Of a stretch of 64,000 nucleotides of DNA, positions 1 to 24,455 are shown in pieces. Each line of letters starts with the position of its first letter. Within the stretch, counting starts at the first letter, position 1. The translations under genes and the position numbers were made by a program. The stretch comes from Bosea sp. 29B. Its GTDB lineage: Bacteria; Pseudomonadota; Alphaproteobacteria; Rhizobiales; Beijerinckiaceae. The notes under the pieces were generated by a model. It was not told where the DNA came from, did not search any database, and saw only the letters and a list, made by a program, of their open reading frames with translations. The DNA lies in NCBI RefSeq assembly GCF_902506165.1, contig NZ_LR733817.1, positions 5,051,625-5,115,624 of the forward strand, written 5' to 3'.

Positions 1-1247
1 CAGGTCAGGCGCCAGCCTTCCTCGCGCTCGACCAGGATGAAGTTCAGGTCGTAGAGCGCGCCCGGCAAAGGCGATGGAATCCCCGACAGCTGGAAGCTGT
101 CATTGGCGAGCTCGCCGATGAAGGCGCGCTGGACGATGAAGTTGACTGAGATCGGCGGCCGGCCGGTGTCGCGATGGCTTGGCAGCAGTCCCGTGAGCCT
201 GTCGAACGGCCATTGGTGATGATCGACCGCGTCCTCGAAGGTGTCGCGCGCGGCCTGACAGAGATCGAGAAAGCTCTGCTCGTCGGAAACCTTTGTCCGC
301 AGCACGAGCGTGTTGACGAACGGGCCGACGATCGCCTCCAGCTCGACATCGTCCCGGTTCGCCATCTGCGTGCTCAGCACGAGGTCGCAGGCGCCGGTGC
401 GTTGCCGGAGCAAGGTCAGGAGAACGGCGTAAGCGACTGAAAAGAAGGTCGTACCTTCCTTGCGTGCCAGATCGGCGAGGTTCGCGGTCAGGCGGCGGGG
501 AAGCAGCCGCGACAGCGAGGCGCCGTTTGTGCTCCGCGTCGCCGGCCGTGGACGATCGCCCGGCACCTCGACGGTGGGCAGCTCGGCGAGCTTGCGCTGC
601 CAATAGGCTTCCTCGCGTGCAAGCGCGCCGCCTTCCATGCTGTCCTGGCTGCCTTCGGCGAAATCGGAATATTGCAGGGGAAGCTCGGAGAGGACCGGCT
701 CGCGGCCACGGCCGAGCGCCTGATAGGCTGCGACGAAATCCTTGGCGATGAGACCCATCGACCAGCCGTCGCTGACGATGTGGTGGGCGACGACCAGGAT
801 CACCGCCTCGGCGCGGCTCTTGCGCAGCAGCGTCGCCCGCAGCAGCGGTGCTTCGCCGAGATCGAAGCGCGTGCAGGCTTCGCTCTGAGCAATGCGATCA
901 GCCTCCCGGGCCCTGTCCGCCTCCGGCAGGCCGGAGAGATCGATCTCCGGCAGCTTGAAAGGAACCTGCTCGGCAATCGCCTGGACGGGCCGGCCATCCT
1001 CCAGCCGGATCGCGGTCCGCAGGGATTCATGGCGATCGAGGATCGCCTGGAACGCATCCTGCGCCAGGGATGCGTCCAGATGACCGCGAATCCGCCATTT
1101 CACGGCGATGTTGAGCGCTGGCGTGCCGGGATCCCTGGCGTCGATCTCCCAATAGCGCTGCTGCGCAGATGAGCACCTGGCCGTCATCACGATGTGCTCT
1201 GGCTCGCGCAATTGCGGCTCCGGCTCGCGGGTGAACTGGTTTGCCAT
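1..1247 (-). CDS. NRPS, N-terminal condensation domain (partial, runs off the window)
   Basis: About 415 residues are visible before the window edge, so the 3' end is missing. A short leader is followed by a condensation domain. Its opening (SSAQQRYW, about residues 26-33) and catalytic HHIVSDG (about 155-161) are intact, and later there is a typical VGPFVNTLVLR-like segment. The protein should condense the chain from the upstream PCP with the next amino acid; that later module is outside the window. The ATG lies 6 bases after the stop of the PKS-NRPS gene, so the two are almost certainly co-transcribed. Seeing a C domain first, with no thioesterase yet, means the assembly line continues to the left. 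The C-domain identification is sure. The subtype (LCL, DCL or dual) cannot be set by eye. Confidence 0.9.
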   Translation of the reverse strand, partial: MANQFTREPEPQLREPEHIVMTARCSSAQQRYWEIDARDPGTPALNIAVKWRIRGHLDASLAQDAFQAILDRHESLRTAIRLEDGRPVQAIAEQVPFKLPEIDLSGLPEADRAREADRIAQSEACTRFDLGEAPLLRATLLRKSRAEAVILVVAHHIVSDGWSMGLIAKDFVAAYQALGRGREPVLSELPLQYSDFAEGSQDSMEGGALAREEAYWQRKLAELPTVEVPGDRPRPATRSTNGASLSRLLPRRLTANLADLARKEGTTFFSVAYAVLLTLLRQRTGACDLVLSTQMANRDDVELEAIVGPFVNTLVLRTKVSDEQSFLDLCQAARDTFEDAVDHHQWPFDRLTGLLPSHRDTGRPPISVNFIVQRAFIGELANDSFQLSGIPSPLPGALYDLNFILVEREEGWRLT

Positions 1248-1253
1248 GATCGC

Positions 1254-4200
1254 TCACCCTCTCTCGCGCTGCGAGACGGCGCTTGGCTCGTTCGGCTGCT
1301 GCGCACCGTCGCGCGGGCGTCGCCATGGCCGCTTCCAGAACGTCGCGGCAGGCGCGGTGGCTTCGGCGGCGGGCTCATCGGGAAGCGCGGCTGCGACGGC
1401 GGCGATCGTCCGGTTCCGGAAGAAATCCCGGGCCGCGACCTTGAGGCCTTCGCGGCGGGCACGGCTGGTGATCTGGAAGATGCTGAGGGAATCGGCGCCG
1501 AGGTCGAAGAGGTCGTCGTGGACGTCGATGTCCTCGCGCCGCAGCACCTCGCTCCAGATGCGGATCAGCGTGTCCTCGACAGGGGTCCGCGGCGCAGCTG
1601 CGTCGGCCGTCTTTTCGGCCCTGGGCGCTGTGCTCTGGGCATCCGGCGCCGGCAGCGCGGCGCGATCGAGCTTGCCGCTCTGATTCAGAGGCAAGGCCGG
1701 CAGGCCGACCCAGGCGGTCGGGACCATGTAGTCCGGCAGGTCCTGCGCCAGCGCCGCCCGCAATTCGGCCGGCGGCGGGCTGTCCGCGCTGGTGACGTAG
1801 TAGCAGACCAGGCGCGGCTCGCCCGGCACGTCCTCGCGCAGGATCACGGCCGAGACGATGCCGGCCTTGCGGGCGAGGACGGCCTCGATCTCGCCAGGCT
1901 CGATGCGGAAGCCGCGCAGCTTCACCTGATGGTCGAGCCGCCCGAGATGCACGATACGGCCGTCGGGGAGATATTTGGCACGGTCGCCAGTGCGGTAGGC
2001 CCGGGCGCTGGTGCCGGGATCGACCGGGTTGGCGATGAAGCTCCTGGCGGTGAGTTTGGGATTGTTGGCGTAGCCGCGCGCCAGGCCCGTACCGGCGATC
2101 AGCAGCTCTCCGGGGATGCCGACGCCGACAGGCTCGTTGTTGCCGTCGACGATGTAGAACTGCGTGTTGGCGATCGGCAGGCCGATCGTGACGACCTCGT
2201 CCTCCGGCTGGATGCGGGCGACCGAGGACCAGATCGTCGTCTCGGTCGGCCCGTACATGTTCCAGAGCTCGCCGCCGCCTTCGAGCAGCTTGCGGGCGAG
2301 GTCGAGCGACAGCGCTTCGCCGCCGCAGAGCATGCGCAGGCCCGGCCGTGAGCGGAAACCGGCTTCAAGCAGCAGGCGCCAGGTCATCGGCGTCGCCTGC
2401 AGCACGTTGGCGCCGCTCTGCTGCAGCCGTGCCAGTAGCTCGGCGCCGTCCTTGGCTTCGTCAGCGGTCGCGATCGCGACCCGGCCGCCCTGGATCAGCG
2501 GCAGCAGCAGTTCGAGCGCGGCGATGTCGAAGGTCACCGTCGTGACGGCGAGCATCGTGTCCGAGCTGGCGAAGCCGGGCTCGCGCGCCATCGCGAAGAG
2601 CAGGTTCGACAGCCCGCCATGGCTGACCTCGACGCCCTTCGGCGCCCCGGTCGAGCCGGAGGTGTAGATCACATAGGCGAGCTGATCGGGCCCGATCGCC
2701 GCCGTTCTGATCCCGGCGAGGTTCGCCGTGGTCCGGTCGACATCGATCAGCATGACGCTCTCATCTGGCTCGACGATCGCCGGGTCGAGCGGACCCGCGG
2801 TCAAAAGTGCGACGGCCTCTGAATCCCGCAGGATCCGCTGGATGCGCGCCTTCGGCATGACGGGATCGAGCGGCACATAGGGGAAGCCGGCCTTGAGCGC
2901 GCCGAGCATGCCGGCGATCAGCGCCGGCGAGCGTTCGATTAACAAGCCGATGCGGCTTTCGGGAGCGTCGACGCGCGCCGTCAGCTCGGCCGCGATCCGG
3001 TCGGCCCAGGCATTCAGGGCGGCATAGGAGAGCTGCTGCTCGCCGCAGGAGACGGCGATAGCCTCGGGCTGCTGCTGGACCTGGCGTTCGAAGGCCTGGA
3101 TCGTGCCGTCGTCGCCCTGCAGCGCGACCTGCGTGTCGTTGATCTCGGAGACGAGGCGCTGGCGCTCGTCGCCCTCGATCAGCGGCATCGCCGAGATGAC
3201 CATGTCGGAATTGGCGACGAAGGCCGCGAGCAGCGTCCGGTAGTGGCCGAGCCAGCGGTCGATCGTCGCCGCGTCGAAGAGATCGGCGCCATAGCAACAG
3301 TCGATGCGCAAGCCGTCGTCGGATTCGCCGATGTTGAAATAGAGATCGAAGGTGGAGAAGGCCTTGGGGTTCGGCTCTACACCGGCTTTGACACCGGCAC
3401 CGAAATCGAGATTGCCCGCCAGCCGCTCGAGATTGAACTGCACCTCGACCAGCGGCAGCCGCCCGGACACCGGCGGGACGCGCAGTCGCTTCAGCAGGGC
3501 GCCGAGCGTGAAGCTCTGATGGTCATAGGCGTCGAGGACGAGGCGTCCGACCTTGTCGAGATGGGCCGAGAACGGCTCGGCCGGATCGATGCCGCTGCGG
3601 ATCGGCAAGAAGTTGACGCAATGGCCGACGGGCGAGGGGCCGTCGAGCTGCGATTGCCCGGCGGCGGGTACGCCGATGACGAGGTCTCGCTGGCCGGAGA
3701 GCCGCAGCAGCAGCGCCTGGAAGCTGGCGAAGAGCGTGGCGAAGAGCGTCCGCCGGCGCTTAGCGCCCGCTGCCTTCACCTTGCGATAGAGCTCGGCCTC
3801 GATGAAGCTGGTGCGTGTGCCGCCATTGAAGCTGCGCGGCGCCTGCCGTGGCCGGTCGGTTGGCAGTTCGAGCGGGGCGGGAAGCTCCGCGAACATCTTG
3901 GTCCAGTAGGCCGCAGCCTCTTCCGTGCGCGGATCCTGCCGCGTTTGCGAGGCGTAGTCCGTGAAGGGCATTGCTGCCGGCAGCGCGTCGATGCCGGAGC
4001 GATAAGCCGTTGCGATCTCGTCGAGCAGGATGTTGGTCGACCAGCCGTCGCAGACGATGTGATGCGCCGACAGGATCAGCACATGCTTCTGCTCGCCGAG
4101 CCGGATGATCTCGGCTTCGGCCACCGGCCCTTGCACGAGATCGTATGGGCGGCTGGCATAAGCTTGGATCCTGGCCTGCAGCGCGGCCTGCGGGTCGGTC

Positions 4201-7200
4201 TCGCCGCGCAGGTCGCTGATCGCGACCGGCAACGTCCCCGAGGACGAAACCTGCATCATCTCGCCATCGGGCGAGAAGCGCGCATTGAGGATCGCGTGCC
4301 GGCACGCGACCTGCCTGACCGTTTCGGCGAGGCGCAGTGCATCGACGTCACCGTCGAGCGTCAGGCTGATGGATTCGTTGAAAGCGGCGCTGGCCTCGGG
4401 ACCGGTCTGGTCCGACAGCCAGATCTCGGTCTGGGCCTCGGTCAGCGGAAGCTCGATCTCCGATGTCGGGGCGGGCATGTCCGGCGGCAGGCTTTCGGCG
4501 GCCGTTCCGGGCAGCATTCCGTCCCGGCGCATCAAAGCAAGGCTGTCCTCGAAGGCGGCGACGATCGCCGCGATCTCGGCGTCGCCGTGCTGGGTCGTCA
4601 GGAAGCAGGGATAGTGTTCCTGGATGAAGATGCCGCGGGCACGCAGATGATAGTGCAGCAGGCTGCCGAGGCGGTGATCACGGCCCGGCTCGAAATAGGC
4701 GACGCTGCCATAGCTCTCGATCGGCACGTCCCAGCCGACCCTCGCGAAGGCGCGCCGCAGCGCCTCGACGAGGCCCTGCATGCGCTGCGTCAGCGCCTCG
4801 GTCAGCGCCGGCCCGTTCTCCTTGATATGCCGGAGCACGGCGACCGTCGCCGCCAGCGCCAGTGGATGCCTGACGAAAGTCCCGGCGAAGAAGGTGACGC
4901 CGACCTCGGGGACGCTGTCGTCGCCGAAGCGCCAGGCGCCGCCATCGAGCGCGTCCATGAAACGCGGCGTGCCGGCCAGCAGGCCGACCGGCAGGCCACC
5001 GCCGACGACTTTGCCATAGGTCGCAAGGTCCGGCTTGATGCCGAGCAGGGCCTGCACGCCGGCCGGATGGACGCGGAAGCCGGTGACGACCTCATCGAGC
5101 ACCAGCGCGGTACCAGCCTTCTCGGTAATGGCGCGCAATTCCTTGAGGAAGGCGACGGGGAGATAGCCCGGCCGCCGGCTCTGCACCGGCTCGACCAGCA
5201 CCGCAGCGAGCTCATGCGCATGCTCGCGCAGCCAGGCGAGGCTCTCATCTGTGCCGTAGTCCAGGATGGTCATGCGCCCGACGGCGTCCGCCGGAATGCC
5301 GGGAGCTGCCGGCACCGAACGGTGCTGCTCGCCGACGCCGCGGACCAGGACTTCGTCGAACTGGCCGTGATAAGCACCTGAGAATGCAACGATCCTGTCA
5401 CGACCGGTGACAGTGCGGGCGACCCGCATCGCCGCCATCACCGCTTCGGAGCCGGTATTGCAGAAGGCGACGCGGGCATGGCCGGTCAGTTCGCAGAACA
5501 GCGTCGAGGCTTCATGCGCGAGCGGCGATTGCGGCCCGATGGCGAAGCCGTCGGTCAGCTGTGCCTGAACCGCCTCGACGACGAAATCGGGCGCATGGCC
5601 GAATGCGGTCTGGCCGTAGCCGTTGACGAGATCGACATAGGCGTTGCCGTCGACATCCCAGATTCTGGCGCCCTTCGCCCGTGCGGAGACGATCGGGTAG
5701 ACCATTTCCTTCCAGTCGGCGGCGAAGCCGGAGACGGTGCGAGGATCGGCCAGGACCGGGCGGTGCTGGTCGGCGAGCCGCTTCGAGGTCGCGGTCTTGC
5801 CGACATAAAGCTTCGTCAGTCGGGCGATATGGGCGCGTTGCGTCTCGGTGAGCGCTTCGTTGCCCGTGCGGATCAACGGCTTGAAGCGTGCCGTCGAACC
5901 GGCCGTGCCGCTCGCGGCCGGGGAAGCCGGGGCTGGCTGAAGCAGCGTGGCCGCCTGCGGCTGCGGGGCGGTGGAGGGCTGCAAGGCGGGCGCTACGGCT
6001 GCGATGGCCGGCGCTGCCGCTTGGCCGCTCAAGGTCTGGAGTTGGCGCTCCATCAGGCGCGACATCACGTCGAGCTGCTCGCGCATCAGCGCGTCTAGGC
6101 CCGAGGCGGCCGGCCGCTCAGCCATGATGGCGGGAGCCGTCGCCACGACGGCAGGAGCAGCAGAGAGAGGTGTGGCCGGTGCAGCGGCTTGCACTGCAAC
6201 AGCCGGCTTCGCCATTTCCTGCGGGCAAAGCTCGGCGATATGGCGCGTGACGTCGTCGACGCTCGGCAGATCGTCGAGCAACTGGCGGAAGCGAATCTGG
6301 ACGCCGAAGGCCGTCTGCAGGCCCTGTGCGGCCTGCGTCAGCAGGAGTGAGTCGAAGCCGAGCTCGAGGAAGCTCGCGCCCGTCTCGTCCGCGCCGAAGG
6401 GCCGCCCGGAAAGGTTCTCGAAGATCGCTGCGACCCGGCCGCCGAGCTCCGAACGGCCCAGGGGGATGTCGGTGTCCGCGGAGGTAGCCATGGCCGGTTC
6501 CTGCTCGGGTTGAGTGGGAGGTGTTTGAACGGGCGCAGCCGCGGGCGCGGCCATTGTCTGGGAGGCCGAGGCGGCCGGCGCTTCGACCCAGTGCCGGCTG
6601 CGCTCGAACGGATAGGTCGGCAGCGAGACGCGCTTCGGCTTGCCGGCAGCCTGATAGGCCGACCAGTCGGGCACGATCCCGGCGGTCCAGAGGCGGCCGA
6701 GCGCGGCGGCGAGCATGGCTTCGGCATCGCCTTGCGCATCGGGCAGGCAGGAGATGGCGGCCCGGCCCGCACCAGCACCTTGCAATGCGAAACTGGCCAG
6801 TGCGGCGCCGGGTCCCACTTCGAGCAGGATGGGCGAGAGGCTGCGCACGAGCGTCGCGATGCCATCGGCAAAGCGCACGGGCTCGCGCGCATGCCGCGCC
6901 CAATAGGAGGGGTCGGTGGTCTGTTCGGCGCTGACCCAGTCGCCGGTCACGCCGGAGATGTACGGCAGCTCCGGCGCATTGAGGCGAATGGCCGCGACCG
7001 CCTCGGTGAAGGGCGCGACCAGCGGGTCGATCATGCCGGAGTGGAAGGCATGCGAGGTCTGCAGGCGGCGATGCGTCGCCCCGCGCTGCGCGAGCTCCGC
7101 TTCCAGCGCCTCGATTGCCTCGAACGGCCCGGCGAGCACGCCCATGCCGGGCGCGTTGATCGCCGCCATGCTGACATTGCCCTGCGCCAGCGCCGCAATC

Positions 7201-9218
7201 TCGGCGTCGGGCAGGCGCACGGCCAGCATCGCACCGCCGGGCAGCTCCTGCATCATCCGGCCGCGCCTGGCAACGAGCGAGAGCGCATCCTCCAGCGAGA
7301 AGACGCTGGCGATGCAGGCGGCGGCGAACTCGCCGACGCTGTGGCCGATCATGGCGGAGGGCTGCAGGCCCCAGCTCATCAAAAGCTGCGCCAGGGCGTA
7401 TTCGACCGTGAAGATCGCCGGCTGGGCGAGCAGCGTCGCCGAGAGCCGCTCCGGATCGCCGCCATTGCTCGGATAGAGCAGGCTGCGCAAGTCGAGCCCG
7501 AGCTCGGGCTTGAGCAATTCGCAGCACAGGTCGACCGTCCGGCGGAAGACCGGCTCGCCGGCATAGAGCTCCCGCGCCATCTGCGGATATTGCGAGCCCT
7601 GTCCGGGAAACATGAAGACGAGATCGCCGACGCCGGTCACGGCCGTGGCGCGCTCGGTGTTCTGCTTGCGCAGGGCCGCGGCAGCTTCGGCGTGATTGTC
7701 GGCGACCACGGCGAGGCGGTGCGGGAAGGAACGCCGTCCCGCCTGCAAAGTGAAGGCGATGTCGGCGAGGTTCTGCTCGGGGTGCGCTTCGACATGCTCC
7801 GCCAGCCTGTCCCGCACCCTGCCGAGCGCCGCTGTGCTGCGGGCCGAGAGCGTCAGGAGCTGGTTACGGCGGGCCGGCGCCACGGGCTCAGTTGCAGGTG
7901 CTTGCTCCAGCACGAGATGCACATTGGTGCCGCCGAACCCGAAGGCGCTGACGCCGGCGCGGCGCGGCCCGTCCTGACCGGCCCATTCCTGGCGGTGGTC
8001 GGCGATAAAGAACGGGCTGTCGGGCAACTCCAGCGCCGGGTTCGGCTGCGTGACGTGCAGGCTCGCCGGCAGCATCCCGTTCTTCACCGCGAGCGCGGTC
8101 TTGATCAGCCCGGTGACGCCGGCCGCGGCGTCGAGATGGCCGACATTGGATTTGACCGAGCCGAGCGCGCAGAAGCCGCGGTCCTCGGTCGTCAGCCGGA
8201 AGGCGGCGGTGAGGCCGGCGACCTCGATCGGGTCGCCCATCGGCGTGCCGGTGCCGTGGCACTCGACATAGCCGATCGAGCGCGCATCGACATCGGCGGC
8301 GGCATGCGCCATGGCGATTGCCGCGGCCTGGCCGTCGACGCTCGGCGCGGTGAAGCCGACCTTGCCTGCGCCGTCATTGTTGACGCCGACACCGCGAATG
8401 ACGGCGTAGATCTGGTCGCGATCCGCAACCGCATCCTCCAGCCGCTTCAGGACGACGAGGCCGGCGCCGCTGCCGAAGATCGTTCCGTTGGCGCCGGCGT
8501 CGAAGGGGCGGCAATGGCCGTCCGTCGAGACGATGCCGCCCTCCTGGGCGAGATAGCCGCGTCGCTGCGGGAAGGTGATCGAGACGCCGCCCGCCAGGGC
8601 CATGTCGCAGCCATGGCAGAGCAGGTTCTGCACGGCCTGGGCGACCGCCAAGAGCGAGGTCGAACAGGCAGACTGGACGGCAACGCAGGGGCCGGTGAGG
8701 CCGAGCTTGTAACCGATCCGCGTCGCGGTGAAATCCGCGGCCGAACCGACCAGCAGCGGCAGGTTGCCGATCTGGAAGCCTGAGGTGTAGTCGGCGATCG
8801 CCGAGCGGTCGTGCAGCAGGTTCTGCAGCAGATAGGTGCTGGAGGTGGCGCCGGCGAAGACGCCGATGCAGTGGCCGGGCGCCGCGGGGTCGTAGCCGGC
8901 ATCCTCGAGCGCTTCCCAGGCGCATTCCAGCAGCAGGCGCTGCTGCGGATCGGTGAGCGCGGCCTCGCGCGGCATCATGCCGAAGAAGGGTGCATCGAAC
9001 TGGTCGATGCCGTCGAGCACGGGCTTCGCCGCAACGAAGTTCGGGAGCGCGCGTGTTGCCGCGTCGAAGCCATCCTCGAGCGCGGCGGGATCGAACCTCG
9101 TGATCGACTCCACACCGTCCAGCAGGTTCTGCCAGAGCGTGCCGACGGTCGGTGCGCCGGGGAAGCGGCCGGCCAGGCCGATGATCGCGACGGCGCGCTC
9201 GGGGAGGGGATCAGTCAT
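1254..9218 (-). CDS. Hybrid PKS-NRPS: KS-AT-ACP-aminotransferase-C-A-PCP (2654 aa)
   Basis: Domains in order: ketosynthase (about 8-435; Cys185 in SACSTSL, His321 in CHGTGT, His361 in NVGH); acyltransferase (about 530-830; GHSVG Ser627 and HAFH at 723-726, the malonyl-type motif); ACP (about 925-1000; Ser957 in GFDSL); a class III PLP aminotransferase (about 1120-1560; Lys1403 in YGKVVGGG); condensation (about 1585-2010; HHIVCDG at 1719); adenylation (about 2050-2520); and PCP (about 2545-2612; Ser2577 in GADSL). This resembles the KS-AT-ACP-AMT-C-A-PCP part of iturin/mycosubtilin synthetases but has no N-terminal acyl-ligase. The KS should extend an aminoacyl chain from the upstream A-PCP protein, and the AMT should turn the beta-ketone into an amine. 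The A-domain pocket residues read D2231 I2232 L2235 Q2274 L2297 G2299 M2321 I2329 W2330 K2516, close to known glycine codes. The start overlaps the upstream gene by 8 bases. Confidence 0.95.
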   Translation of the reverse strand: MTDPLPERAVAIIGLAGRFPGAPTVGTLWQNLLDGVESITRFDPAALEDGFDAATRALPNFVAAKPVLDGIDQFDAPFFGMMPREAALTDPQQRLLLECAWEALEDAGYDPAAPGHCIGVFAGATSSTYLLQNLLHDRSAIADYTSGFQIGNLPLLVGSAADFTATRIGYKLGLTGPCVAVQSACSTSLLAVAQAVQNLLCHGCDMALAGGVSITFPQRRGYLAQEGGIVSTDGHCRPFDAGANGTIFGSGAGLVVLKRLEDAVADRDQIYAVIRGVGVNNDGAGKVGFTAPSVDGQAAAIAMAHAAADVDARSIGYVECHGTGTPMGDPIEVAGLTAAFRLTTEDRGFCALGSVKSNVGHLDAAAGVTGLIKTALAVKNGMLPASLHVTQPNPALELPDSPFFIADHRQEWAGQDGPRRAGVSAFGFGGTNVHLVLEQAPATEPVAPARRNQLLTLSARSTAALGRVRDRLAEHVEAHPEQNLADIAFTLQAGRRSFPHRLAVVADNHAEAAAALRKQNTERATAVTGVGDLVFMFPGQGSQYPQMARELYAGEPVFRRTVDLCCELLKPELGLDLRSLLYPSNGGDPERLSATLLAQPAIFTVEYALAQLLMSWGLQPSAMIGHSVGEFAAACIASVFSLEDALSLVARRGRMMQELPGGAMLAVRLPDAEIAALAQGNVSMAAINAPGMGVLAGPFEAIEALEAELAQRGATHRRLQTSHAFHSGMIDPLVAPFTEAVAAIRLNAPELPYISGVTGDWVSAEQTTDPSYWARHAREPVRFADGIATLVRSLSPILLEVGPGAALASFALQGAGAGRAAISCLPDAQGDAEAMLAAALGRLWTAGIVPDWSAYQAAGKPKRVSLPTYPFERSRHWVEAPAASASQTMAAPAAAPVQTPPTQPEQEPAMATSADTDIPLGRSELGGRVAAIFENLSGRPFGADETGASFLELGFDSLLLTQAAQGLQTAFGVQIRFRQLLDDLPSVDDVTRHIAELCPQEMAKPAVAVQAAAPATPLSAAPAVVATAPAIMAERPAASGLDALMREQLDVMSRLMERQLQTLSGQAAAPAIAAVAPALQPSTAPQPQAATLLQPAPASPAASGTAGSTARFKPLIRTGNEALTETQRAHIARLTKLYVGKTATSKRLADQHRPVLADPRTVSGFAADWKEMVYPIVSARAKGARIWDVDGNAYVDLVNGYGQTAFGHAPDFVVEAVQAQLTDGFAIGPQSPLAHEASTLFCELTGHARVAFCNTGSEAVMAAMRVARTVTGRDRIVAFSGAYHGQFDEVLVRGVGEQHRSVPAAPGIPADAVGRMTILDYGTDESLAWLREHAHELAAVLVEPVQSRRPGYLPVAFLKELRAITEKAGTALVLDEVVTGFRVHPAGVQALLGIKPDLATYGKVVGGGLPVGLLAGTPRFMDALDGGAWRFGDDSVPEVGVTFFAGTFVRHPLALAATVAVLRHIKENGPALTEALTQRMQGLVEALRRAFARVGWDVPIESYGSVAYFEPGRDHRLGSLLHYHLRARGIFIQEHYPCFLTTQHGDAEIAAIVAAFEDSLALMRRDGMLPGTAAESLPPDMPAPTSEIELPLTEAQTEIWLSDQTGPEASAAFNESISLTLDGDVDALRLAETVRQVACRHAILNARFSPDGEMMQVSSSGTLPVAISDLRGETDPQAALQARIQAYASRPYDLVQGPVAEAEIIRLGEQKHVLILSAHHIVCDGWSTNILLDEIATAYRSGIDALPAAMPFTDYASQTRQDPRTEEAAAYWTKMFAELPAPLELPTDRPRQAPRSFNGGTRTSFIEAELYRKVKAAGAKRRRTLFATLFASFQALLLRLSGQRDLVIGVPAAGQSQLDGPSPVGHCVNFLPIRSGIDPAEPFSAHLDKVGRLVLDAYDHQSFTLGALLKRLRVPPVSGRLPLVEVQFNLERLAGNLDFGAGVKAGVEPNPKAFSTFDLYFNIGESDDGLRIDCCYGADLFDAATIDRWLGHYRTLLAAFVANSDMVISAMPLIEGDERQRLVSEINDTQVALQGDDGTIQAFERQVQQQPEAIAVSCGEQQLSYAALNAWADRIAAELTARVDAPESRIGLLIERSPALIAGMLGALKAGFPYVPLDPVMPKARIQRILRDSEAVALLTAGPLDPAIVEPDESVMLIDVDRTTANLAGIRTAAIGPDQLAYVIYTSGSTGAPKGVEVSHGGLSNLLFAMAREPGFASSDTMLAVTTVTFDIAALELLLPLIQGGRVAIATADEAKDGAELLARLQQSGANVLQATPMTWRLLLEAGFRSRPGLRMLCGGEALSLDLARKLLEGGGELWNMYGPTETTIWSSVARIQPEDEVVTIGLPIANTQFYIVDGNNEPVGVGIPGELLIAGTGLARGYANNPKLTARSFIANPVDPGTSARAYRTGDRAKYLPDGRIVHLGRLDHQVKLRGFRIEPGEIEAVLARKAGIVSAVILREDVPGEPRLVCYYVTSADSPPPAELRAALAQDLPDYMVPTAWVGLPALPLNQSGKLDRAALPAPDAQSTAPRAEKTADAAAPRTPVEDTLIRIWSEVLRREDIDVHDDLFDLGADSLSIFQITSRARREGLKVAARDFFRNRTIAAVAAALPDEPAAEATAPAATFWKRPWRRPRDGAQQPNEPSAVSQRERG

Positions 9219-11208
9219 GCGAGCCGCCTATCGACGTGCTTTCAGGGAAGGATGCGGGCAGGCCGCGCGAGCGCAGGCCGCGTTCGCGTGCCGCGGCGAG
9301 GCTGCCGAGCACGCTCGGCTTCTGCGGCGTCAGATGGCCGGCCAGCGCCCGCACATTCGGGTAACGGTAGAGGTCGACCAGGGCGAACCAGGGCAGATCC
9401 CGGACGAGGCGCCGGTGCAATTCGGCGACGAGCAGGGAATTGCCGCCGAGATCGAAGAAATTGTCGTCGATGCCGACGATGTCGATCTGGAAGACATCGG
9501 CGACGGCATCGGCGAAGCGCCGCTCCATCGCATTGCGGGGCGCAGCATAGGGCGCTGCCGTCTCTGGCCGGGCGCGGCCGGGCGCCGGCAGCGCGACGCG
9601 GTCGAGCTTGCCGTTCACGGTCAGCGGGATATCAGGCACGAAGACGAACGCCGCGGGCACCATATGCGCCGGCAGGGTCTCGCCGAGATGGGCCTTCAGC
9701 GCTGCGGGGGAGGGACGCTCCGCGCCATCGGCCACGAGATAGCCGACGAGCCGCTCGTTCCCGTCGTCGGAGCGGAGCAGCACGGCGGCCTGCCTGATTC
9801 CGGGATGCGCCATCAGCGCCGTCTCGATCTCGCCGAGCTCGACGCGGAAGCCGCGGATCTTCACCTGCTGGTCCGCCCGCCCGAGATATTCGTAGTCGTC
9901 GTCCTCGACCTGCCGAGCAAGGTCACCCGAACGGTAGAGCCGGGCGCCGGGCTCCTCCGGATGCGGCACGAAGCGCGCGGCGTTGAGCTCGGGACGGTTG
10001 AGATAGCCGCGGGCGAGCCCGGCTCCCGCCACGAAGATCTCGCCGATCTCGCCCCGCGGCACCGGACGCATGGTCTCGCCGTCGAGCAGCAGGAGCTTGA
10101 GGTCCGGGATCGGCCGCCCGATCAGGCTCGACCGCTGTTCCGTATCTGTGGGCGAGAGGGGGCGATAGGTGACGTGCACCGTCGTCTCCGTGATCCCGTA
10201 CATGTTGACGAGATGGGCATGCTCGCCGCGGCGCTGGTACCAGCCGGCGAGGCGGCGCGGATCGAGCGCTTCGCCGCCGAAGATCACCAGCCGCAGGGAG
10301 AGCTGGTCGCGTCCGCCGCGGTCATGATCGGCGCGGTCGAGGGCCGCGAAGGCCGACGGTGTCTGGTTGAGCACCGTGACGCCCTCGTCGGCGAGCAGCC
10401 GCAAAAAGGCGGCGGGGTCCCGCGTCGTGCTCTCCGGCACGATCACGAGACGCCCGCCGTGAAGCAGCGCCCCCCAGATCTCCCAGACCGAGAAGTCGAA
10501 CGAGACGGAGTGGAACAGGGTCCAGACATCGCTGGGCCGGAAGCCGAACCAGCCATCCGTCGCACTGAACAGCCGCGTCACTGCGGCATGCTCGAGGGCG
10601 ACGCCTTTCGGCTTGCCGGTCGAGCCGGAGGTGTAGATCACATAGGCGAGGTCGCTGGCCGCAGCCGCGCGCCGCGTCGGCGAAGCTGCCGCCCTGGCGT
10701 CTTCGGCCGGATGCGGATCGATCCGTTGCCGGCCGGGCGGCAGCCAGTCGGCGTGCTCGGAGGCGATGATGAGCGAGGCATCGGCATCCTCGACCATGAA
10801 GGCGAGGCGCTCGCCCGGATAGGCCGGGTCTAGCGGGAGATAGCCGGCGCCGCTCTTCAGGATCGCGACCAGCGCGATGATGAGGTCGAGCGAGCGCGGC
10901 AGGCAGAGCCCGACCATTGCGCCGGGGCCGGCGCCCATCGCGGTCAACTGCTCGGCCAGTCGTTCGGCGCGCGCATCAAGGTCCGCATAGGAGAGATGGG
11001 TCGCGCCGAAGGACAAGGCGACGGCGCGTGGCCGGGCCGCGACTTGCGCGGCGAAGAGGTCGACCAGGGTCGCTGGCGCGGTTCGCGGCGCCTCTCGCCG
11101 GGTGACTTGCGGGCGGGCGGCTCCAGCGAGATCGGGAGCGGCGGACGCCCGAGGCCGGCGACGACGCGGGGCCTGGCGGGCAGATTTCCTGTCGATGGTC
11201 TGTGTCAT
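9211..11208 (-). CDS. NRPS initiation module A-PCP, predicted threonine-activating
   Basis: A 665-residue stand-alone loading module: adenylation domain at about 45-545 (A3 motif YTSGSTGKPKG, A5 NMYGITETT, A7 YRSGDL, A10 NGKLDR), then a PCP with Ser591 in GGNSL. There is no C domain, so it should start a chain. The ten pocket residues, aligned by eye to GrsA, are D238 F239 W242 N281 I309 G311 M336 V344 H345 K534. DFWNIGMVHK is the established threonine code. The gene overlaps the KS-containing gene by 8 bases, which fits direct hand-over of Thr to that KS. The start is uncertain: ATG at 11208 is chosen, but in-frame ATGs at 11268 and 11307 exist and none has a good ribosome site. The N-terminal 45 residues are basic and not part of the domain. 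Confidence 0.93.
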   Translation of the reverse strand: MTQTIDRKSARQAPRRRRPRASAAPDLAGAARPQVTRREAPRTAPATLVDLFAAQVAARPRAVALSFGATHLSYADLDARAERLAEQLTAMGAGPGAMVGLCLPRSLDLIIALVAILKSGAGYLPLDPAYPGERLAFMVEDADASLIIASEHADWLPPGRQRIDPHPAEDARAAASPTRRAAAASDLAYVIYTSGSTGKPKGVALEHAAVTRLFSATDGWFGFRPSDVWTLFHSVSFDFSVWEIWGALLHGGRLVIVPESTTRDPAAFLRLLADEGVTVLNQTPSAFAALDRADHDRGGRDQLSLRLVIFGGEALDPRRLAGWYQRRGEHAHLVNMYGITETTVHVTYRPLSPTDTEQRSSLIGRPIPDLKLLLLDGETMRPVPRGEIGEIFVAGAGLARGYLNRPELNAARFVPHPEEPGARLYRSGDLARQVEDDDYEYLGRADQQVKIRGFRVELGEIETALMAHPGIRQAAVLLRSDDGNERLVGYLVADGAERPSPAALKAHLGETLPAHMVPAAFVFVPDIPLTVNGKLDRVALPAPGRARPETAAPYAAPRNAMERRFADAVADVFQIDIVGIDDNFFDLGGNSLLVAELHRRLVRDLPWFALVDLYRYPNVRALAGHLTPQKPSVLGSLAAARERGLRSRGLPASFPESTSIGGSHD

Positions 11209-11376
11209 GCAGGGAAGGCTATGCGCCAAGCCCGCGCGACAACATTGGAGCAGGTGGAGTAACGCCATCTTCCCATGGGGTAGGCGCACCCGGCGCGGAT
11301 GACACATGCCAAGCGCGCTCAGCCGGGCAAAGCATGCCCGAAAGGGCTGTGGATGCGGGGGCGTGGTTCGGGGACG

Positions 11377-12234
11377 TCAGGATCCTAGCCGGAAGTAGAG
11401 CCCCGAATAGGTCTCGACATGGCATTCCGGATGGAACGGCACGTCGAGGCTGCGTGGCTTCTCCCAGGAATCCACGAGCTCATAGCCGAGCGCGAGCAGG
11501 CCATCGATGAAGCCGGTGCGCGCCGGAACGCTGTAAGGACAGAACGAGACCTCGCCCGTTCGCGTGATCACCGACTGGATCGTCGCGAAGGAGTGCCGCG
11601 CGTGGAGCGGCGTGCGCTGGACGATCAGGTGCCGGGGGCGCTTCGGCCAGGCCTTCAGCCTCTCGTGCAGATAGTTCTCCGGCAGGTATTGCAGCGAGCC
11701 CGCTGCGAGCAGGATCTCCATGCCGCAGCCGTCGTCGGCGCTGTTGGTGAAGCGCAGGCGTGGCGTGGGCTGCCGTGCGGCGATCGCCTGTCCCGCCCGG
11801 GTGATGTGCGGCAGGTCGAAGACGGTCCAGCGGAAGTCATCGGGAAAGCCGAGATACCGGTCGTATTGGCGGAAGGCGTGCCCGACATAGCCGCCGAGAT
11901 CGAGCAGCGTCCGGGCGCCTTCGTCGAGCGCGCCGCGCAGCCAGAACAGTACCGGATACTCGGTCGCCGGCATCGGCTCGATTCCGCCGGCCATGGTGGT
12001 GTAGTGGTCGATGTCCGCCATCGCGTCATGGTCGAAGCCGGACAGGCCGGTCGGCAAGGCACGCTCGGCCGCCTCGAAGCCGGCAAACCTGCCGCTGTAG
12101 CCGCAGTGATATTGGCCGGCGCGAAAGCGGGCCTCGTAGAGCTTCCGGCGGAACTGGGCGATGCCGGGCCAGTGCGCCGAGGCTGTGCGGGCGCTCAGGC
12201 GCAGGCTCTGTTTCCATGTGGCGCTGGCGGGCAT
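11377..12234 (-). CDS. Putative methyltransferase, TIGR04325-like family
   Basis: 285 residues. The N-terminal third contains the GYSGRFAGFEAA segment typical of the TIGR04325 (LIC12133-type) proteins found in polysaccharide and O-antigen loci. A Rossmann motif follows (TLLDLGGYVGHAF, about residues 111-123), with further conserved W-x-VFDLP and LLAAGSLQYLPE-like blocks as in SAM-dependent methyltransferases. The substrate is unknown. It lies between a small membrane protein (stop 3 bases upstream) and the NRPS loading module, so it may methylate either a sugar or the peptide-polyketide product. No membrane segment is visible. The family call is from remembered motif pattern, not a search. 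Confidence 0.75.
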   Translation of the reverse strand: MPASATWKQSLRLSARTASAHWPGIAQFRRKLYEARFRAGQYHCGYSGRFAGFEAAERALPTGLSGFDHDAMADIDHYTTMAGGIEPMPATEYPVLFWLRGALDEGARTLLDLGGYVGHAFRQYDRYLGFPDDFRWTVFDLPHITRAGQAIAARQPTPRLRFTNSADDGCGMEILLAAGSLQYLPENYLHERLKAWPKRPRHLIVQRTPLHARHSFATIQSVITRTGEVSFCPYSVPARTGFIDGLLALGYELVDSWEKPRSLDVPFHPECHVETYSGLYFRLGS

Positions 12235-12237
12235 CGT

Positions 12238-12672
12238 TCAGGCCTCGCCGGCGCGTTTCGCCTCGGGGCGAGGGCTCGGTTTCAGTAGCGGCGCCTTGCC
12301 GCGCGGCGAGACCTCGGCGGTGCCGGCCCGCTCGGGCCGCGGCGCGAAACCCAGCAGCCTGGCGGCAGGCGTGGCGAAAAGCACGGCCAGGACGAGCAGG
12401 AGCAGGGCGACGGTTGCCCGCAGGCGGGAAGGGGCCGGCGCGCTGTGCGAAGCGGGCGCGGAGGAGGTCGAGGATTGTGCCGCCTTGTTCGGAGTTGGCG
12501 CGGGCGGTGCCCGCCGGATGGGCGCACCGAACACGGCCTTGGTCAGCTCCGCGCCGCCTTCGTCGATAGCGAGCCAATGCTTCGCGAAGGCGGAGTTCCG
12601 GACCGCCGGAAGAAAGGGGGCGGTGCGTGCGCTGCTGCCATCGTCCCGGCTGTGCTTCTCCGAACTCGTCAA
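12238..12672 (-). CDS. Small single-pass membrane protein of unknown function
   Basis: 144 residues with no family I recognise. The first half is hydrophilic, with a Pro/Ala/Ser-rich stretch. One hydrophobic segment (about residues 86-108, rich in Leu, Val and Ala) is followed by a basic, Pro-rich tail, suggesting a single-pass inner-membrane protein. Its stop is 3 bases before the methyltransferase ATG, which argues for translational coupling and for it being a real gene despite low complexity. It sits between a Wza-like export protein and the NRPS genes, so a role in anchoring or export is possible but not shown. Confidence 0.6.
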   Translation of the reverse strand: MTSSEKHSRDDGSSARTAPFLPAVRNSAFAKHWLAIDEGGAELTKAVFGAPIRRAPPAPTPNKAAQSSTSSAPASHSAPAPSRLRATVALLLLVLAVLFATPAARLLGFAPRPERAGTAEVSPRGKAPLLKPSPRPEAKRAGEA

Positions 12673-12691
12673 GAGTGCCTCCGTCCTGGCC

Positions 12692-12711
12692 GGGAGAGGG
12701 CTTGCTCTCCC
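12692..12711. other. Short inverted repeat between operon genes
   Basis: Arms GGGAGAG and CTCTCCC (7 bp, 6-base loop) lie in the 145-base gap between the export-protein gene and the small membrane-protein gene. There is no T-run, so at most it is a weak attenuator or an mRNA-stability hairpin. Confidence 0.3.
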
Positions 12712-12817
12712 CGTCGTCTTGAGATCGCCCGATCATTGAACTGGATCGCGCTCGGCCACGTCGTCGACGACTGCCTTTTCAGGCATGGCGGCGCAGCCGG
12801 CGTGAGCCGTGACAGGG

Positions 12818-14149
12818 TCATTGCTGGCTGGCGAGGCCGGTGAGCTGGCGCACCGGCGTCTTTGCCGCCTCCCCTGGAAGGGAGCTCTCCGCAGCGCGCG
12901 TCTTCGGGGTCACCTGGACGATGTCGCCGGGTTGCAGGGTGGTTTCGAAATTCGCTTGGATCGTCACCGGCGTGAGGCCGGCCTGTCGCGTGATCCTGAT
13001 GTCCCAATCCGCCGCCGTACCGGAGCCCTGGCTCGCCACAAGCCTGCGACGCCGGCTTTCAGCGATCTCGCGCGCGGTCGGCAGGCTGCGCTCGACCTCG
13101 AGGATCTTTTGCCGGGTGTCCTGCAGCTCGAGCACGACACGGCGCATATAGGTCGTGTCGAGCTCGCGCAGCCGCAGCGTCAGCTCGCCGAGCGCCGTCT
13201 CGCTCTTGGCCAGCTCCGCCCGCAGGCGCGCCGCTTCGCCCTGCGTGCGGGTATAGTCGCGCTCGCGCTCGACCTGGACGGTACGCAAGCCGTGGCCGGT
13301 CGTCGCCAGCTTGTTGTATTCGCTCGATTGCTCGCGCGTCAGCTCGACCTGCCGCTCGACCAGTCGAGCTTGCTCGGTCAGGGCGGCCTTTTCGGACTGG
13401 AGCCGCGCGACCTGCTGGCTCAGCAAATCGCGCTCGCCCTCGCGCGCCCGGCGCTGGAAGTCGAGGATCTCCTGTTCGCCGGCCAGAATCTGGACGCTGC
13501 CTGCGCTTCGTGCATCGGCCACGAGCTGCTTGACGCCGTCGCGCTCGGCTTCGAGGCGCTGGCGGCGTGCCGTCAACGTCTGGAGCGAGGCGGTGAGCAG
13601 CTGCTCGCGCTCGTCGGCGAGCAGGAGCTCGGATTTGAGGACGGCGATCGACTCGTCGCCCACCCGATAGCCGCCGGCCAGTGCGACCGCCGCGAGGACG
13701 TTGAGCCCGTGCCGGAAGGGATAGGTCCCCGGCGAGCGCACCTCGCCCATGATGTAGACCGGCTTCAGCTCGGCGATCCGCAGGCTGACCACGGCATCGC
13801 GCAGATAGCCGTCCATCAGCGCGCTGCGGATTCGCGCTTCCGCTTCCGACGCCGAGAGCCCGGCGATCCTGATCCGCCCGGCCAGCGGCATGTTGACCGC
13901 GCCAGAGCCGTCGAGGACGAAGTCGCCGGAGAGATCACTCTGCCCGAAGACCGAGATCGTGACCTTGTCGCCGATCGAGAGCGTGTCGGCTGCCTCGCGC
14001 TCGGCGGCCGAGACGGTCACGACCAGGATGAGTGCCCAAGCCACCAGCGCCAGGATGAGCGGCTGGAGCCAATGCCATCCCGATGGGACGGCGAGTGCCG
14101 CGGCGCGCGAGGCATGGTGAGGTTTCCGGGGGTGGATTGACGTGTCCAA
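12818..14149 (-). CDS. Polysaccharide export protein (Wza/ExoF-like) with coiled coil
   Basis: About 443 residues. A hydrophobic segment near the N-terminus (residues about 28-47) precedes the export domain, which begins DTLSIGDKVTISVFGQSDLSG, the usual Poly_export (Wza) start. A SLBB-like block follows (VYIMGEVRSPGTYPF). Then comes a long Gln/Glu/Arg/Leu-rich coiled coil (about residues 190-370) and a C-terminal SLBB-like piece ending in GDIVQV. ExoF-type proteins of rhizobia have this layout and act in exopolysaccharide export across the envelope. I chose the TTG at 14149 because GGAG stands 6 bases upstream; an ATG at 14287 would add 46 residues that look unrelated. It is the first gene of the probable minus-strand operon ending in the NRPS genes and is divergent from the decarboxylase gene. 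Confidence 0.82.
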   Translation of the reverse strand: MDTSIHPRKPHHASRAAALAVPSGWHWLQPLILALVAWALILVVTVSAAEREAADTLSIGDKVTISVFGQSDLSGDFVLDGSGAVNMPLAGRIRIAGLSASEAEARIRSALMDGYLRDAVVSLRIAELKPVYIMGEVRSPGTYPFRHGLNVLAAVALAGGYRVGDESIAVLKSELLLADEREQLLTASLQTLTARRQRLEAERDGVKQLVADARSAGSVQILAGEQEILDFQRRAREGERDLLSQQVARLQSEKAALTEQARLVERQVELTREQSSEYNKLATTGHGLRTVQVERERDYTRTQGEAARLRAELAKSETALGELTLRLRELDTTYMRRVVLELQDTRQKILEVERSLPTAREIAESRRRRLVASQGSGTAADWDIRITRQAGLTPVTIQANFETTLQPGDIVQVTPKTRAAESSLPGEAAKTPVRQLTGLASQQ

Positions 14150-14436
14150 AGCCGGCTCCGATCGTCGTGCCCGAAGAGGGGCGATGCGATGCCGGCAGGA
14201 TGTCAGGGCAGGGCCGCTTTCCGCATTGGCATTCGGGCCAAGGCGTGTCGCTACCGGATTAATCCCATAGTCGAGCGCGGCAGCCATCCTCGGGCCGAGG
14301 TGCCATTCGCGTCGCGTGGGAGTAGCCCTTCCTTGTTCGCGCCGGGGCGCTCACCTCCCAAAGCGTCCTTTGAGAAGGCGGCGCTTGCGGCAAAGCTTTT
14401 GGCTCCCTCCCGTGCACGATCCGGCGGAGCTCAGAC

Positions 14437-15423
14437 ATGCAGAAGCGTATCCTTGTCACAGGTGGCGCCGGCTTCGTTGGCTGCCACCTCTGTGAGCGGC
14501 TGGTCGCCCAGGGGCACCAGGTCATTGCGGTCGACAACTATTATACCGGGCGCCGCGAGAACCTGACGGCGTTGCTCGGCCTGCCCAATTTCGAGACGCT
14601 CAGGCACGATGTGACCTTCCCGCTCTATCTCGAGGTCGACGAGATCTACAATCTCGCCTGTCCGGCCTCGCCGGTGCATTATCAGCGCGACCCCGTGCAG
14701 ACCACGAAGACCAGCGTGCTCGGCGCGATCAACATGCTCGGCATGGCCAAGCGGCTCGGCATCCCGATCTTGCAGGCATCGACCAGCGAGATCTACGGCG
14801 ACCCGGACGTCCATCCGCAGGTCGAGGATTATCGCGGGCTCGTCAGCATCAGCGGTCCGCGCGCCTGCTATGACGAAGGCAAGCGCTGCGCCGAGACGCT
14901 GTTCTACGACTACAAGCGGCGCCATGGCGTCGAGATCCGCGTCGCCCGCATCTTCAACACCTACGGGCCGCGGATGAATCTGGAGGATGGCCGCGTCGTC
15001 TCCAACTTCATCGTCCAGGCGCTGCGCAACGAGCCGATCACGCTCTATGGCGATGGCCGCCAGACCCGCGCATTCTGCTTCGTCGACGACCTGGTCGAAG
15101 GCCTGATGCGGCTGATGAACGTGACCCAGCCTTTGGACAGCGCGGTCAATCTCGGCAATCCGGTCGAGACCTCCATGGCCGAGATCGCCGAGCTGATCAT
15201 CTCGCTGACGGGCTCGCGCTCGCCGATCGTCTTCAGGCCGCTGCCGCAGGACGATCCGCGCCAGCGCTGCCCCGACATCAGCAAGGCGCACGAGCTGCTG
15301 CACTGGCGGCCCAAGGTGCCCCTGCGGGATGGGCTCAAGCGCACGATCGCCTATTTCGAAGGTGTGCTGTCGAAGATGCACGACCCCGTGCGTAGGGTCG
15401 AGGTCGCGAGGGTGAGCTCGTGA
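14437..15423 (+). CDS. UDP-glucuronic acid decarboxylase (UDP-xylose synthase)
   Basis: 328 residues, an extended short-chain dehydrogenase. It has the NAD motif GGAGFVG (8-14), the TSEIYGDP block, and the YDEGKR form of the YxxxK catalytic pair. It closely follows the UXS pattern, including the [10 protein letters not shown] and [15 protein letters not shown] segments. These enzymes oxidise and decarboxylate UDP-glucuronate to UDP-xylose, a nucleotide-sugar donor. It is the first gene of the plus-strand polysaccharide cluster and overlaps the next gene by 4 bases (GTGA). A dTDP-glucose 4,6-dehydratase is less likely because of the YDEGKR signature. Confidence 0.88.
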
Positions 15424-16211
15424 CGCAGGACGGCACGCTTCCCCGCGCACGCATCATGGGCGTCAACGTCAGCGCCATCACCATGGCGGACGCCCTCGGC
15501 GCGGTCGAGGGCTGGATCGCCCGCAAGGCCCGGAACTATGTCTGCATCACCGGCGTCCACGGCGTGATCGAGAGCCAGTCGGATCCCAGGCTGATGGCGA
15601 TCCATGAGCGTGCGGGGATGGCAACGCCCGACGGCATGCCGCTGGTCTGGATGGCCCGCAAGCTCGGCCATGGCCGGACCGAGCGGGTCTACGGCCCGGA
15701 CCTGATGCTGCGTCTCACGGCGTTGTCGGCCGAGAAGGGCTATCGCCAATATTATTTCGGTGGCGCGCCCGGCCTTGCCGAGCGCCTGCGCGAGCGTCTC
15801 ACCGCGCGCTTTCCCGGACTTTCTGTCGCGGGCACCTTCTCGCCGCCGTTCCGTCCTTCATCGGCGGCGGAGGACGAGGAGATCGTGCGCATGATCAACG
15901 CCGCCAAACCGGACATCGTCTGGGTCGGGCTCAGCACGCCGAAGCAGGAATACTGGATGGCCGCGCATCTCGACCGGATCGAGGCGCCGGTCATGATCGG
16001 TGTCGGCGCCGCATTCGATTTCCTCGCCGGCACCAAGCGCCAGGCCCCGGCCTGGATGCAGAAGCGCGGGCTCGAATGGCTGTTCAGGCTGCTCTCGGAA
16101 CCGCGGCGGCTCTGGCGCCGCTACGGCAAGATCGTGCCGCAGTTCATGCTCGGCGCCAGCCTGCAACTGCTCCGGCAGAGGACCGCGCTGGCTGCTACCT
16201 CCAAAAGGTAG
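15420..16211 (+). CDS. WecG/TagA/CpsF family glycosyltransferase
   Basis: 263 residues. The family pattern is clear: an early [12 protein letters not shown] block, the TPDGMPLVW motif with its Asp, YGPDLM, and the C-terminal [12 protein letters not shown] block. Members transfer sugars such as ManNAc or ManNAcA to lipid-linked GlcNAc, or extend capsule and exopolysaccharide repeat units, at the inner face of the membrane. It starts at a GTG overlapping the stop of the decarboxylase gene, so the two are coupled. The sugar transferred cannot be told from sequence. Confidence 0.9.
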
Positions 16212-17353: not shown

Positions 17354-17421
17354 GCATTTTCGAGCGAGGTGGATACCGGCTCGCGGGAAGAAAATGCGAC
17401 AAAACAAAGAGTTGGGGCATG
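17354..17421. repeat. Rhizobiales-type palindromic intergenic element with conserved tail
   Basis: Outer arms GCATTTTC (17354-17361) and GAAAATGC (17390-17397) enclose a second imperfect palindrome (cgagcg...ctcgcg). They are followed by the tail GACAAAACAAAGAGTTGGGG. From memory this matches a repeat scattered through Hyphomicrobiales genomes. The tail AAACAAAGAG also occurs after the palindrome at 24205. The upstream candidate ATG of the next gene (17419) lies in this tail. Confidence 0.65.
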
Positions 17422-17478
17422 TCTGCGCTTCAAGGAAGTGCGGACATGCTCAGCCGAGCGAGATCCCAGGAGTCTGTC

Positions 17479-18954: not shown

Positions 18955-19049
18955 CGCGCAAGGCGATCTGAGCCGGAGCCGGTCGCTCGCGAGGCGCCGG
19001 CCGGTTCGGTCGGTATCCCCGGGTGAAACCGCAGGCGAGGCACGAGGCC

Positions 19050-21697: not shown

Positions 21698-21799
21698 CTC
21701 GGAGTAAGCGTTCGTCGGTTTAGGTGGCGCCGAATCAGGTCTCAAGGGTATCTAGGCAGCGATCACTTAATGTGTTCCCGCCAAAAAAGGAGCCCCTTT

Positions 21800-24196: not shown

Positions 24197-24204
24197 CGCC
24201 TGAA

Positions 24205-24305: not shown

Positions 24306-24455
24306 CGCTGCCTCGAGGCGACCCGGCCGTGATGGCCGGGTCGCCAATCTCCGCGACGAGCTTCGCGGGGGCCATGCCTTCCTCTCCCAATGATTGCCGC
24401 CCGCCCGGATACGCCGGCGTCGACGGCTGCAATCGCGCCAAGGAAACCGACGGAC

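Follow-up and report, generated by a model that had tools for sequence, protein, structure and literature searches.

The nonribosomal peptide synthetase-polyketide synthase (NRPS-PKS) genes at the left end of the analysed stretch of Bosea sp. 29B DNA (the window, 64,000 nucleotides, G000:C1:5051625-5115624) are located inside one exopolysaccharide (EPS) locus and not at its side, because EPS genes flank them both on the left and on the right. We favour, with moderate confidence, the interpretation that this is a single Wzx/Wzy-type EPS locus with a built-in NRPS-PKS arm, in which the assembled unit would join the EPS repeat before export and would be methylated by a TIGR04325 family protein. 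The interpretation builds on gene content, order, conservation, motifs and co-distribution, all of which were observed directly. The six same-strand genes that the first-pass annotation of the window had read, from an export protein into the NRPS-PKS line, all exist, with family matches as listed here (L007 denotes the fetched stretch that extends beyond the left edge of the window):

3..1247, minus strand: first 415 residues (condensation domain; PF00668, 260 bits) of a 751-residue condensation-thioesterase (C-TE) protein; motifs HHIVSDG and GFCRSG are present on reading the sequence
L007:17616-19871 (genome C1:5050616-5052871): C-TE with its remainder left of the window; the condensation domain starts at 1247 and passes the window edge
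1254..9218, minus strand: protein of 2654 residues with ketosynthase (KS), acyltransferase (AT), acyl carrier protein (ACP), aminotransferase (AMT), condensation (C), adenylation (A, glycine code DILQLGMIW) and carrier (T) domains in this order (Pfam)
9211..11307 (start may be 11208), minus strand: A-T loading protein (Pfam), threonine code DFWNIGMVH
11377..12234, minus strand: TIGR04325 family methyltransferase (NCBIfam, 174.5 bits against a curated cut-off of 80; co-distributed with the line)
12238..12672, minus strand: small protein with one hydrophobic segment and no family match
12818..14287 (start may be 14044-14149), minus strand: OPX (Wza/ExoF-like) export protein with SLBB and HlyD-like parts (PF02563, 65 bits)

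The row is as close-packed as had been claimed (gaps or overlaps of 3 to 170 bases): from the OPX gene to C-TE, we measured 145, 3, 168 (69 with the longer A-T start), -8 and 6 bases. The HlyD-like part of the OPX protein matched TIGR01843 with 47 bits, below the family cut-off. A longer reading of the small protein (12026-12736) was rejected, as it overlaps the methyltransferase gene and has no family. A scan of 9000-14700 for sigma-70-like promoters returned none, which says little with 0.4 expected in shuffled sequence, and the Rfam scan gave nothing useful.

The EPS locus that had been placed divergent from these six genes is real, judging by the Pfam matches of its plus-strand genes. Moreover, the region left of the window, where a search for wzx/wzy, thioesterase and transporter genes had been suggested, contained a Wzy-beta-helix fusion, the thioesterase and a flippase-like gene. 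The flippase-like gene and an Sfp-type phosphopantetheinyl transferase (PPTase) gene lie left of C-TE on the opposite strand; further left, again on the minus strand, are the fusion, a methyltransferase and a family 2 glycosyltransferase, identified by the NCBI name (glycosyltransferase family 2) of its Bosea relatives. The EPS genes are:

14437..15423, plus strand: nicotinamide adenine dinucleotide (NAD)-dependent sugar epimerase/dehydratase, epim1 (PF01370, PF16363)
15420..16211, plus strand: WecG/TagA/CpsF glycosyltransferase (PF03808, 221 bits; TIGR00696 above cut-off)
16324..17334, plus strand: second NAD-dependent sugar epimerase, epim2 (family matches)
17419..18954, plus strand: initiating (polyprenyl-phosphate) sugar transferase (PF02397, 194 bits; TIGR03025 above cut-off)
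19023..21218, plus strand: Wzz chain-length regulator with a tyrosine-autokinase part (family matches)
27770..29167, plus strand: ManC-like mannose-1-phosphate guanylyltransferase (PF01050, PF00483)
L007:12378-15359: Wzy/O-antigen-ligase-type protein fused to a right-handed beta-helix (PF04932, 53 bits; ten hydrophobic segments)
L007:15495-16895: flippase-like protein (no Pfam family; TIGR02900 with 24.6 bits against a cut-off of 372; seven hydrophobic segments)

The locus thus contains an initiating sugar transferase, Wzz with an autokinase part, OPX and a Wzy polymerase candidate, the last by PF04932, a family common to ligases and polymerases. The open reading frame at L007:16724-17836 was rejected as a gene, being antisense to the flippase-like and PPTase genes.

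In the assembly line itself, the KS, ACP, T, C and AMT motifs look intact by eye, and those of C-TE by alignment. We looked for the parts of an NRPS-PKS with an in-line beta-aminotransferase, and KS, AT, ACP and a class III aminotransferase with its active motifs were all present; among PDB structures, the AMT was closest to the mycosubtilin AMT domain (397 bits). The first adenylation code, DFWNIGMVH, was found in 14 of 14 readable Bosea loci, and the second, DILQLGMIW, in 15 of 15 Bosea and in six relatives. We take these, read at the PheA anchor positions, to be a threonine and a glycine code, respectively, and HAFH in the AT is presumably malonyl-specific. The unit predicted from the domain order and codes consists of threonine, malonate and glycine with the beta carbon transaminated, that is 3,4-diamino-5-hydroxyhexanoyl-glycine. 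In the proposed pathway, the locus PPTase would activate the carriers and the A-T protein would load threonine. KS-AT would add malonate and the aminotransferase would convert the beta-ketone to an amine, giving 3,4-diamino-5-hydroxyhexanoyl on the ACP, to which the following C-A-T would add glycine. C-TE, carrier-free in Bosea, may then move the acyl unit from the last T domain to an amine or hydroxyl group of a sugar in the polyprenyl-linked repeat. TIGR04325 would methylate the unit. The repeat would next be flipped, after which the Wzy fusion would polymerise it for export through Wzz and OPX. We infer the transfer to a sugar, the methylation target and the order of the steps.

Conservation within the genus ties the line to the EPS genes. 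Among 67 Bosea genomes, full-length C-TE (at least 76%) was present in 15; Wzz at an identity of at least 76% occurred in exactly those 15, and the Wzy-beta-helix protein at no less than 72% in the same 15 only, apparently split in one of them (G066). The chance of this C-TE/EPS co-occurrence under independence would be ~3e-15, a figure overstated owing to shared descent. The PPTase and flippase-like genes accompanied the line in 15/15, and gene order and strand were kept as far as the fetched stretches reach (those of G054 and G024 end early). The distance between the KS protein and C-TE genes was 5 to 8 bases in 14 of the 15 genomes and 57 in one, and the A-T and KS genes overlapped by 8 or 4 bases in all 14 genomes holding A-T. 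In 7 of 13 readable loci, a ManC-like gene lies between OPX and A-T, beside the slot of the small protein; therefore, sugar-nucleotide, export and NRPS genes stand in one row. Base composition was similar in the NRPS and EPS gene sets. Close C-TE relatives were found in ten named records, seven from Bosea and the others from Boseaceae, a Methylobacterium metagenome-assembled genome and a Hyphomicrobiales metagenome-assembled genome.

Absence of the NRPS genes from relatives with the same EPS locus, which the first-pass annotation had named as evidence against a link, was not what we found, as all 15 Bosea genomes with the locus carry them. Its comparison of strains with and without the NRPS genes held in part: six other Bosea genomes have an EPS locus without this NRPS, which is related to the one described here and clearly different from it, so that the two are relatives and not the same locus. 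In those six, OPX is likewise divergent from epim1, epim1, WecG and epim2 are 62-75% identical to their counterparts, Wzy 47-49% and Wzz 35-36%, and Wzy and the beta-helix are separate neighbouring genes. The sister locus of G003 holds three GNAT-type acyltransferases, a flavin-dependent (FAD) enzyme, an acyltransferase, a glycosyltransferase and an oxidoreductase-epimerase. The three GNAT (Acetyltransf_6) proteins of that locus (L061:3991-9094) could acylate the polymer by another route.

We also searched for relatives of the line, which other soil and marine bacteria share with Bosea, in 397 genomes of the order, 398 of the phylum and 385 of the class. The AMTs of 15 genomes from 11 genera (Bosea counted once), a group initially picked by score, split from nine other NRPS-PKS AMTs by a 100/100 branch. 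Of the 15, 13 had an initiating sugar transferase (PF02397) no more than 36 kb from the AMT, where 0.59 genomes would be expected under uniform placement (P ~2e-17), as did 10 of the 11 genera (P ~1e-12); the 36 kb limit was chosen after the distances were known, and the P values ignore shared descent. In the control genomes, PF02397 was near on the same contig in 0/13, a count in which a near gene could be missed, as many controls lie in smaller contigs and some had shorter flanks (20 kb in G499, G505, G522 and G1032); the controls G526 and G1119, two of 15 low-scoring AMT genomes, stood outside this proximity count. Pfam-confirmed EPS genes were found beside the line in the Labrys-type, G637, G1059, G785, G417, G272, G459 and G340 loci, with clear flippase families at G272 and G459. 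From flanks of ~20 kb, Labrys had seemed to have the line without EPS genes, which wider flanks overturned.

Plasmids gave a similar picture. At a 47.5% identity cut, 24 records were of the clade type, and 14 of them were read; EPS genes lay within ~20 kb of the line in 12 of the 14, a PPTase was near the line in 12, and TIGR04325 in 11. Annotated plasmids with both line and EPS genes came from Rhizobium, Loktanella, Rhodobacter CZR27, Jannaschia, Aliiroseovarius and Variovorax paradoxus, and hidden Markov models recovered the same pairing on unannotated plasmids of Ensifer, Sinorhizobium and Rhizobium. The Rhizobium cases are CCGE532, SL42, NXC24 and AB2/73, and those of the other two rhizobial genera are Ensifer canadensis, Sinorhizobium fredii and S. 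americanum. On the Burkholderia arboris plasmid, one of the nine other records, there were no sugar transferase, OPX, Wzz or flippase matches. A plasmid search with C-TE gave 54 records, of which none covered 80% of the query.

The TIGR04325 methyltransferase follows the line closely. It scored above cut-off in 14 of 15 NRPS-bearing Bosea genomes vs 1 of 52 others (Fisher P ~2e-12) and in none of the six Bosea genomes with the sister EPS locus. The lone match in a Bosea genome without this NRPS (G022:C1:1659850-1660387) is split over two frames. Order-wide, the family occurred in 19 of 397 genomes, comprising 11/11 with the line vs 8/386 others (P ~9e-17), or by genus 6/6 vs 6/135 (P ~9e-8). 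For this count, the line was sought by C-TE at E 1e-60 with an AMT check of the hits, and the 397 genomes of the C-TE and TIGR04325 searches were taken as the same draw, with 11 line-bearing genomes in both. Among the order genomes with C-TE hits, six (G101, G209, G237, G260, G417 and G440) were initially outside the fetched loci, and G417 and G440 were fetched later. In the wider set, TIGR04325 was present in 12 of 15 clade genomes and in 0 of 13 controls. A D-x-G-G-x-x-G stretch, taken as the S-adenosylmethionine motif, was invariant in ten aligned members, and the search of solved structures returned four matches, none meaningful (best E 0.054).

The terminal protein would be the point of transfer. 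In Bosea C-TE, no carrier match or motif was found, and a low-confidence linker connects C and TE. We examined the structure model of a Bosea C-TE 95% identical to that of the window, in which the C and TE folds were mostly confident and the carrier-free linker disordered; with a pTM (predicted TM-score) of 0.59, the C-to-TE arrangement is meaningless. All 50 structures listed in a Foldseek search with this model contain a C domain. In 42 aligned TE rows, mostly from Bosea and kept by length (below 1000 residues), the triad columns held Cys in 42/42, Asp in 42/42 and His in 40/42. A Cys nucleophile throughout was considered and holds near Bosea; in the wider set of 58 rows, the nucleophile column has 46 Cys, 10 Ser, 1 Gly and 1 gap. 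Asp592 follows the strand after the nucleophile elbow, by alignment and model. Elsewhere, the terminal protein is of several types. The Labrys type and G459 have C-T-TE, and G319 and G340 have two C domains; in G272, G753 and G785, the C domain is accompanied by a remnant of an A subdomain, and G1059 has a full Gly-coded module with an ordinary C-A-T-TE end.

The predicted unit also varies among relatives. The first code is Val-like, Ile-like or unassigned, and the glycine code is retained in most. The idea of a uniform glycine-ended product was weakened by an additional Gly-coded module in G1059, G645 and G676 and by a different second code in G319, G637 and Aliiroseovarius; variant codes also occur in Variovorax paradoxus, Rhodobacter and Jannaschia. 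More tentatively than for Bosea itself, we suggest that these lines may belong to a widespread undescribed class of surface polymers. Its repeat would carry an NRPS-PKS diamine, as a side group or Wzy-linked within the backbone; the first amino acid of this unit would vary (Thr, Val-like, Ile-like and others), and its malonate-amine-glycine core would be nearly constant. TIGR04325 proteins would be its dedicated tailoring partners, and the class would span Bosea, Labrys, Rhizobiaceae including Sinorhizobium fredii plasmids, Rhodobacterales and Variovorax.

Several observations weigh against an acyl unit for the polysaccharide, and some of them suit a free diffusible product instead (a signal, an inhibitor or a metallophore), released by the TE and sharing the locus since cells on surfaces or in biofilms need both products and co-regulate them. 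The TE keeps its Cys-Asp-His triad and could simply release a free molecule, and the G1059 line ends in an ordinary C-A-T-TE. A terminal carrier motif is retained in most other members, in one together with a full A domain, and therefore transfer by a carrier-free C-TE is not general. Moreover, G417 and G676 have no PF02397 within 36 kb, no EPS genes were found within 20 kb of the line in Spirosoma linguale, and the Variovorax WDL1 flanks contain one glycosyltransferase only; in the flanks read, G676, Spirosoma and WDL1 have few EPS genes or none beside the line. The EPS genes of the Labrys type are ~15 to 25 kb off, with regulatory genes between, and the Bosea flippase-like protein has no Pfam match and a weak NCBIfam one. 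G052 keeps the line without TIGR04325, which is also absent from G785, G753 and G637; in G187, G264, G216, G340, G645 and G1059, it lies outside the fetched locus, which would fit a link to the product better than mere neighbourhood. The first-pass annotation had offered a natural product sharing the exporter as one of its two ideas. It is the weaker one, although the triad would permit release and no attachment chemistry was seen. We regard a free product as unlikely: among the scanned locus genes, we identified neither a small-molecule exporter nor a resistance gene, the ABC (ATP-binding cassette) exporter is of the type I secretion kind, and the line is present in 15/15 Bosea genomes with this EPS locus and turns up in many genera beside EPS genes in other arrangements.

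Three facts favour an acyl unit for the EPS: none of the Bosea genomes found to have this EPS locus lacks the line, several families show the combination again with their EPS genes reshuffled, and the locus has its own PPTase and no identified small-molecule exporter. The amino-acid or peptide decoration of an EPS proposed in the first-pass annotation has accordingly gained strong indirect support (the Bosea co-occurrence, the other genera, the PPTase/flippase-like pair and the tracking by TIGR04325); the covalent link is what we infer. The unit might instead modify the polymer's lipid or terminal anchor or take its place, or cap chain growth. A similar role was proposed for the fatty-acid-synthase-like proteins of some capsule loci (RkpA, WcbR), and PKS-type enzymes have a precedent in surface polysaccharide loci. 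We consider this improbable, as there is a single KS-AT extension and the predicted product is small and amine-rich and is not a lipid. Least probable by far is that an NRPS island and an EPS island were merely inserted close together. Every part does come from a known family, but such chance adjacency is made unlikely by the genus-wide co-occurrence in Bosea and the recurrence in other genera, with PF02397 proximity, the AMT clade, the TIGR04325 co-distribution and the similar base composition pointing the same way.

Wzx/Wzy-dependent EPS loci of alphaproteobacteria include the rhizobial Pss and Exo regions. The Bosea locus resembles such loci in its initiating sugar transferase, Wzz with autokinase, OPX, Wzy-like polymerase, flippase-like protein and glycosyltransferases, and differs in its TIGR04325 gene and in its NRPS-PKS line of three proteins with a PPTase, none of which is known from described Wzx/Wzy EPS loci. 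The KS-AT-ACP-AMT order and the in-line class III aminotransferase are shared with the mycosubtilin, iturin, bacillomycin and microcystin lines; unlike in the mycosubtilin type, we found an amino-acid starter, one short Gly module, a carrier-free C-TE end (in Bosea), an EPS context and a separate AMT group. Amino-acyl decoration of surface polymers is known from Dlt and from the amide-linked amino acids of O antigens. The predicted polymer would likewise bear amino-acid groups, in this case as a PKS-extended diamine unit from a multi-module line.

C domains that use a free amine are known from VibH and SgcC5. The terminal C domain of glidonin module 13 is also reported to use a free amine (PMC10587159). 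As in that module, an intact HHxxxDG C domain ends the Bosea line, with the difference that it is followed by a TE with a Cys nucleophile. The ObiF1 thioesterase has a catalytic cysteine (PMC6668435), and the Bosea TE similarly has Cys in place of Ser, together with Asp and His. An ObiF1-like geometry (Asp on a later strand, RifR-like triad) was not found in the model, in which we read the Asp as occupying the EntF-like place described in PMC6668435.

No described system combining these genes had been known to the first-pass annotation, and we also found no description of an NRPS-PKS arm in EPS loci among the listed titles and abstract openings of open-licence papers, subscription papers and preprints being outside the search. 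All parts belong to known families, and in the same search we found no description of a link between such a unit and a polysaccharide. If correct, NRPS-PKS lines would also make building blocks of surface polysaccharides, beyond free small molecules, and the product of clusters counted as natural-product clusters would be a slime component. With the predicted cationic diamine groups, the polymer would differ in its charge, in adhesion and metal binding, and in how hosts recognise it; several of the carriers are rhizobia, in which large plasmids bear the genes. For the TIGR04325 family, there would be a biochemical context open to direct testing.

Left of the locus (L007:5356-9258), we observed three LuxR-type response-regulator genes and a histidine kinase gene. 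In three relatives, kinase matches lay where the fetched stretch ends, and there were no regulator matches within the stretches. A second NRPS cluster is located elsewhere in the same genome (G000:C1:3268589-3276190). Between the Wzz and ManC-like genes of the window are three further genes:

21770..24196, plus strand: right-handed beta-helix protein, perhaps a type I secretion cargo (PF13229; adjoins the type I secretion genes)
24390..26195, plus strand: type I secretion ABC permease/ATPase of the PrtD subfamily (TIGR01842, 640 bits; cut-off 510)
26180..27619, plus strand: HlyD-type periplasmic adaptor (TIGR01843, 367 bits; cut-off 209)

The ABC-HlyD pair was considered as a peptide exporter, which is unlikely, both proteins being above the type I secretion family cut-offs. 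The beta-helix protein (808 residues), beside this pair (21770-27619), is perhaps a secreted polymer-modifying enzyme.

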